Positions 52,071-52,174 of a stretch of DNA of 53,958 nucleotides are shown piece after piece. Position 1 is the first letter of the stretch. Every line of letters starts with the position of its first letter. Origin of the DNA: a virus. Made by a program: the position numbers and the translations under genes. The stretch is taken from positions 1 through 53,958 of IMG/VR virus record IMGVR_UViG_3300024429_000008, one strand, 5' to 3'. The notes beneath the pieces are model-generated. The model was not told the origin of the DNA. It saw only the letters and a list, made by a program, of their open reading frames with translations, and made no database searches.

Positions 52071-52088
52071 AAGGGTGCAGAGACAGGT

Positions 52089-52136
52089 GACCGGGGGAGG
52101 TAATGCAAGACGTTGCACCCCCGGTCCTATTTTTTT
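52089..52136 (+). terminator. Leader intrinsic terminator (attenuator)
   Basis: GACCGGGGG (52089-52097) pairs perfectly with CCCCCGGTC (52118-52126); an inner stem TGCAA/TTGCA (52104-52108, 52113-52117) adds to it, with a 6-base one-sided bulge. Seven T follow at 52130-52136. It sits between the promoter and the 52156 gene, so it must be regulated or leaky. Exact repeat words flank it directly on both sides. Confidence 0.85.
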
Positions 52137-52174
52137 GCAGAGACAGGAGACGAATATGTCCTTGGATGAGGTAG
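52103..52174 (+). CDS. Possible leader peptide inside the attenuator
   Basis: A 23-residue frame from ATG 52103, beginning M-Q-D-V-A-P-P-V-L-F-F, overlaps the terminator stem and the start of the next gene. GGGGGAGG lies 2-9 bases upstream, closer than ideal. Translation would melt the terminator stem. Speculative. Confidence 0.25.
   Translation: MQDVAPPVLFFCRDRRRICPWMR

Follow-up and report, generated by a model that had tools for sequence, protein, structure and literature searches.

A conserved putative leader attenuator carrying each phage's own dispersed word at the edge of its hairpin

The window analyzed here, 53,958 bases long, takes in the whole of one IMG/VR virus record and carries phage genes, including those for a terminase, a primase, DNA polymerase I (PolI), Sak4 and an exonuclease. 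At positions 3516-6215, ubiquitin-like (with a ThiS homologue in the relative G003), ThiF-like and JAB-like genes follow one another and may form a phage-borne operon for ubiquitin-like conjugation; apart from ThiS in G003, their matches lie below the Pfam cut-offs. The attenuator locus is made up of the following features:

52042..52070, plus strand: sigma70-type promoter, TTGACT-17-TATACT, with 10/12 matches; a promoter-like TTGAC...TA lies at the same place in 5/5 clade contigs
52077..52087, plus strand: word copy 1, GCAGAGACAGG, with one base between its 3' end and the hairpin; the place is kept with each relative's own word
52089..52126, plus strand: two-tier terminator hairpin, 9 bp + 6 bp, with 60/60 pairs kept in five contigs
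52130..52136, plus strand: T7 tract of the attenuator, as read from the sequence
52137..52147, plus strand: word copy 2, immediately 3' of the T tract and sharing bases with the SD of the first gene; relatives lack it at this place
52156..52737, plus strand: first rightward gene, without a PHROGs match; homologues in G001, G003, G007 and G008

A single T separates word copy 1 from the 9-bp outer stem of the hairpin (52089-52097 with 52118-52126). This is followed by an AG bulge and an inner stem of 6 bp, including two G-T pairs (52100-52105 with 52111-52116), around a loop of 5 nt, with A 52117 left unpaired. The bases CTA lie between the hairpin and the T7 tract, and an SD-like AGGAGA is found 3' of word copy 2, with the ATG of the gene at 52156. 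Another ATG, inside the stem (52103-52105), would open a 23-codon leader ORF overlapping the start of the first gene. RNA folding of 52075-52160 yielded -35.8 kcal/mol (z = -5.54), with 0/200 shuffles equally stable. Our analysis thus confirmed that the attenuator and its flanking words are present as set out in the preliminary description of this DNA.

The case for an attenuator rests on conservation in relatives rather than on promoter or terminator scans. A simple promoter scan of the window returned 12 promoter-like sites against a mean of 10.0 in shuffles, so that a match at the scan threshold is not rare. The attenuator hairpin was not among the matches of the first terminator scan of the window, presumably because of its inner bulge, and a later scan that required 6 T in 8 missed the G007 attenuator (four T) as well as the leftward units described below. 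A search of Rfam gave no match.

Searches with TerL and PolI delineated the window's own clade, with TerL 69-74% identical, and a distant clade (G004, G005, G006, G010 and G011), with TerL 31-35% identical. In the latter, G004 codes for a DNA methyltransferase (N6_N4_Mtase) at 52930-54300. The TerL search gave only distant matches among named phages, in 4 records, the best (26%) covering half the query in Bacillus phage BalMu-1; bacterial and archaeal contigs gave none. Single-sequence scans with the first rightward gene and with the gene at 22805 found no further relatives, and an alignment search with the neighbour gene recovered nothing beyond the four known ones.

At the level of sequence, the anatomy of the locus is conserved, the hairpin covaries, and the word keeps to the hairpin and agrees with the dispersed word of its own genome. 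First, the order promoter, word, hairpin, T-run and gene was observed in 5/5 clade contigs with the locus (the window, or G000, and G001, G003, G007 and G008), which bears out the earlier placement of an attenuator between the promoter and the first gene; G002 and G009, two fragmentary clade contigs, yielded no match to the neighbouring gene and stand outside this count. The hairpins of G001, G003, G007 and G008 have the same two-tier GC form, and each stands 5' of the local homologue of the first rightward gene. Second, the hairpin arms co-vary. An alignment made by hand, used because MAFFT placed the window's stem wrongly against the others, shows 60/60 pair cells kept over 12 positions, 8 of them variable, and both arms of the inner as well as of the outer stem have changed. 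Swapping the 3' arms between contigs left a mean of 47.2 pairs, and 60 were reached in 1.8% of permutations, a value near the floor set by two alike sequences. Third, the word core begins 7, 12, 19, 21 or 56 nt downstream of the -10 across the five contigs, whereas the end of the word lies 0-4 nt from the hairpin in the four contigs measured and abuts it in G007. This nearly constant distance to the hairpin, against a variable one to the -10, ties the word to the terminator. The word is replaced in register by each genome's own, and the proposal that the upstream copy is a fixed part of the attenuator accordingly holds in 5/5. Two other proposed elements were not borne out by the comparison. 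Word copy 2 and the in-stem start codon are found in the window only and in none of the relatives' attenuators: the downstream copy, which in the window also supplies the SD, is not supported as a part of the mechanism, and neither is a leader-peptide attenuator, as both the codon and its reading frame lack conservation.

The window's word was absent from the relatives checked for it (L001, L002, G001, L012, L013, L014 and L015). Well-sampled contigs each carry their own dispersed word, and CCGGGAGAG types replace the window's word at the attenuator. These words are:

G003: AACCGGGAGAG
G001: ACCGGGAGAG
G007: ATCGGGAGAG
G008: AGCCGGGAGAG
G009: TGTGGGTGAGA
G010: CTGCGGGGC
G004, G005, G006, G011 and most other distant loci: CTGCGGAGG

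There are 36 copies in the window and, counted by 9-base cores, 37 in G003, 35 in G004, 36 each in G005 and G006 and 40 in G011 (all 53-57 kb), and 29 in G010. G001 has 21 copies in 40 kb, G007 has 23 (8-base core) and G009 has 20 in 22 kb (7-base core), while the 48 copies in G008 were counted with a 7-base core and are hence partly due to chance. The words of the window and its relatives are about equally frequent on both strands; no clear word was seen in the short loci L033, L034, L035 and L050 (4-6 kb). DNA uptake words and Chi sites are also dense, asymmetric and dispersed, as the window's word is, but no bacterial or archaeal genome dense in the window's word was found. A direct pair of it occurs in 71 bacterial or archaeal stretches, of which 53 hold 2 words and none is dense in the word (maximum 7 in 8 kb; the host may be outside the collection), as expected for a phage-private factor. 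A word-pair scan of viral contigs returned just coding tandem repeats in unrelated contigs. The unrelated contig L179 (IMGVR_UViG_3300043411_000823) carries CCGGTGTTC 20 times in 7.2 kb, perhaps as a tandem array or as another dispersed word.

Exact copies of GCAGAGACAGG in the window number 36, with 19 on the plus and 17 on the minus strand, against an expectation of 0.046 under a third-order Markov model and 0 for a reversed control pattern; with up to 2 mismatches there are 71, whereas 100 shuffles gave 20.5 on average. Among the exact copies, 27/36 lie inside ORFs, both sense and antisense, of a gene set chosen mechanically, longest first, so that in-gene counts are approximate for small ORFs. 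The noncoding DNA of the window is enriched for words (9 versus 1.7 expected). G001 alone shows a weak tendency to even word spacing (P 0.02), the other genomes being no more regular than random, and orientations alternate significantly in G004 only (P 0.006). Strong hairpins lie downstream of 9 and upstream of 7 of all 361 words; hence, we do not claim a general association of words and hairpins. As most words have no link to a terminator, the main job of the factor that reads them is probably something else. At 3765-3818 of the window, two inverted words flank a palindromic stretch. Antisense words also stand just upstream of SD-like sequences of rightward genes (13711, 16058, 18938, 22781, 24857 and 29096), with CTCCTTTA or similar beside the word. 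Beyond the attenuator, the words of the window are part of the following features:

42699..42709, minus strand: word of a second word-hairpin unit, in the leftward operon; G003 and G007 have it at the same place with hairpin and T-run, G001 has the word only, and it is absent in G008
42654..42698 (approximate limits), minus strand: hairpin after the leftward-operon word, with a poor T-run, CTTCC, in the window
32013..32041, plus strand: promoter TTGACTT...TATAAT, its spacer holding a reversed word at 32025-32035
11770..11812, plus strand: promoter TTGACTT...TATACT, with a word 4 nt past the -10
24345..24398, plus strand: intrinsic terminator (24345-24377) with T-rich tract, 3' of the gene at 22805-24307, then a word at 24388-24398

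The last of these has its word 3' of a T-rich tract, so the downstream placing seen at the attenuator is not unique in the window. The gene homologous to that behind the 32013..32041 promoter has a like promoter in front of it in G003 and G008, with a word 4-5 bp upstream of the -35.

These promoters bear on a rival explanation, in which the words are operators or stoperators: a word-binding factor would block polymerase at promoters and within operons, in the manner of mycobacteriophage L5-type repressors, and at the present locus the bound word would reinforce the terminator and keep the rightward genes off. Of the window's four stereotyped TTGACTT promoters, three have a word inside or beside them (rotation P 0.0012, in a test that takes no account of the noncoding word excess), an arrangement that fits a repressor as well or better. 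Set against this, few words in the relatives lie beside such promoters (0/5 in G001, 2/10 in G003, 0/5 in G007 and 1/9 in G008). The published passages on Cluster A mycobacteriophage stoperators describe many asymmetric sites, some at promoters, with a consensus that diverges between relatives, and place them in short intergenic spaces, oriented with transcription (PMC6550527, PMC9283540). The window resembles them in having 36 asymmetric dispersed sites, where 20-30 or more would be looked for, as well as in the similar number of sites per genome and in the divergence of words between relatives. It differs in that its words are about equally on both strands and mostly inside genes. Moreover, neither an integrase nor a cognate repressor was identified among the proteins scanned, where only a PadR/MarR-like HTH protein was seen. 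We regard this explanation as somewhat unlikely, though one to be taken seriously.

The second unit is flanked by the Sak4-neighbour gene and the next leftward one. Here the window, G003 and G007 all have a strong hairpin after the word, and only G003 and G007 add a T-run to it; at this place G001 has the word without a hairpin, and G008 has neither. A tRNA-His (13460-13533) comes soon after the leftward-operon word in G001 (L008), and a sequence resembling a tRNA 3' half precedes the leftward word of G001 and of G007; G008, word-less there, has it at the corresponding position. In aligned genes, the window's coding words coincide with the relatives' word positions at 0/12, 0/14, 0/11 and 0/10 sites, yet a word is present at both noncoding units. 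This is our main argument that the word acts at these units and is not there by accident.

It also bears on another alternative, an ordinary attenuator or terminator whose neighbouring words are there since noncoding DNA is free to collect them. Such an origin would agree with the noncoding enrichment of words in the window and with how common intrinsic terminators with GGGGGAGG stems are: a scan of IMG/VR for this hairpin form returned 34 stretches, with the known relatives being L164, L166 and L182 only, and the remaining stretches looked like unrelated terminators and were set aside. It does not readily explain why, at two separate units, the word stays in place to within a few bases even though the word itself has changed. 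Per place, a word within 3 nt and on the same strand would arise by chance with a probability of about 0.002, a figure that includes no correction for noncoding enrichment. This alternative thus appears improbable.

The words inside genes are under DNA-level selection in both orientations. Words coincide at orthologous coding places in 13/21 cases for G003/G008, 8/16 for G003/G001, 6/15 for G003/G007 and 5/25 for G008/G007, and within the distant clade in 18/24, 14/24 and 17/24 for the pairs among G004, G005 and G006 and 13/24 for G004/G011, against about 0.2-0.5 expected and always in the same orientation; G004 and G010, which have differing words, share 0/21 positions. Likewise, the words kept in aligned coding DNA exceed expectation in G004/G005 (17/22 versus 2.2), G004/G006 (14/22 versus 1.7), G004/G011 (13/23 versus 1.5), G003/G001 (7/14 versus 0.7) and G003/G008 (17/32 versus 4.7, with the 7-base core), and word identity at aligned codons is far above that of other k-mers. 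Both antisense and sense copies in genes have been retained, which makes an RNA-only role unlikely for the word in general. The preliminary description had left open an RNA or a DNA element; of these, an RNA-only element is the unlikely one. Selection on the DNA in both orientations makes a DNA-binding phage factor likely.

A further rival takes the words for dispersed DNA-processing sites for site-specific nicks, recombination or packaging, in which case the words at hairpins would mark a DNA structure or origin rather than transcription control. PolI, an ERCC4-type nuclease, a RecB-type PD-(D/E)XK exonuclease and Sak4 are among the genes in all compared genomes, and in the distant clade similar hairpins without a T-run follow a word in G004 (3819), G005 (22491) and G011 (16688). 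The Pseudomonas phages tf and Rembedalsseter are known to carry dispersed 9-bp nick motifs that vary by group, and the published passages on localized nick motifs in these, the phiKMV group and T5 place them on one strand, with 14 sites in tf and 13 in Rembedalsseter (PMC3517423, PMC11780129). As far as those passages go, the words resemble the motifs in being dispersed, 9-11 bp long, mostly coding and variant by phage group, but differ in lying about half and half on both strands and in their number of ~36. The conserved promoter and T-run at the locus also suit a terminator better. We therefore consider DNA processing an unlikely account. Words that are dispersed, on both strands and clade-specific in this way were not reported in the open-licence literature searched, the nearest being stoperators and nick motifs; passages of PMC3120641 contained nothing of relevance.

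The explanation that we tentatively place first, with a probability of roughly 0.4, is a leader attenuator like lambda PR'-tR', in which the factor that reads the dispersed word docks at the hairpin edge and lets polymerase through. In lambda, the PR'-tR' leader attenuator heads the structural-gene array and works with Q antitermination. The present locus recalls it because the rightward array carries structural genes, and, judged from sequence alone, it shares the sigma70 promoter, short leader and intrinsic terminator heading that array. It departs from lambda in that no Q homologue was identified among the proteins scanned and that its candidate docking site borders the hairpin, rather than lying in the promoter, and has ~36 copies in the genome. 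RNA polymerase would start at 52042-52070, make a leader of ~60 nt and then meet the intrinsic terminator before it reaches the first rightward gene. At the hairpin's front edge, the word would serve as docking site for a phage-encoded, sequence-specific DNA-binding factor, the same as reads the ~36 dispersed copies, which, once made, would act on polymerase paused at the attenuator and bring about read-through by the logic of lambda PR'-tR' and Q.

The steps of this scheme differ in strength. The most plausible control site is the word, in its fixed place beside the hairpin. We infer that the terminator works, and that a protein, encoded by the phage, reads the word. That its effect is read-through rather than blockade is a guess: both are compatible with the data, the words at 3/4 window promoters speak for blockade, and read-through is slightly favored only because the position of the word follows the terminator and not the promoter. 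Against a lambda-like attenuator stand the distant clade (G004, G005, G006, G010 and G011), where dispersed words are present and no word-terminator unit was found, and the uneven leftward unit, without a hairpin in G001, absent in G008 and with a poor T-run in the window. The proposed antitermination also need not be obligatory, given other promoter-like sequences downstream in the same gene array. Overall, the earlier interpretation is thus supported in part.

As to the factor, no Q-like or other antiterminator or word-binding protein was found among the proteins scanned, which cover part of the genes and among which a novel factor would escape notice. By conservation, the candidates are the ERCC4-type nuclease, the RecB-type exonuclease and Sak4, present in all compared genomes holding the region. 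A further candidate, the PadR/MarR-like HTH protein (40921-41412), is restricted to the window's clade, and its structure model is poor (mean pLDDT 55). Positions 41402-41701 carry a Cpn10/GroES-like gene with a homologue in G003.

Related phages of ~55 kb each have their own 9-11 bp word at a nearly constant number. It is conceivable, although we hold it with reserve, that this is a clade-private address word, present in ~36 copies on either strand and selected within genes, whose factor would also switch the two attenuators; a change in its specificity would then re-set the words while the attenuator positions stay. The attenuator is one of the few loci where the position of the word, and not just its density, is constrained, and it therefore shows what the word-reading factor would touch, namely the edge of the terminator. 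It offers a tractable handle on this wider phenomenon, at which the reader of the word may be tested with one DNA probe and one reporter.
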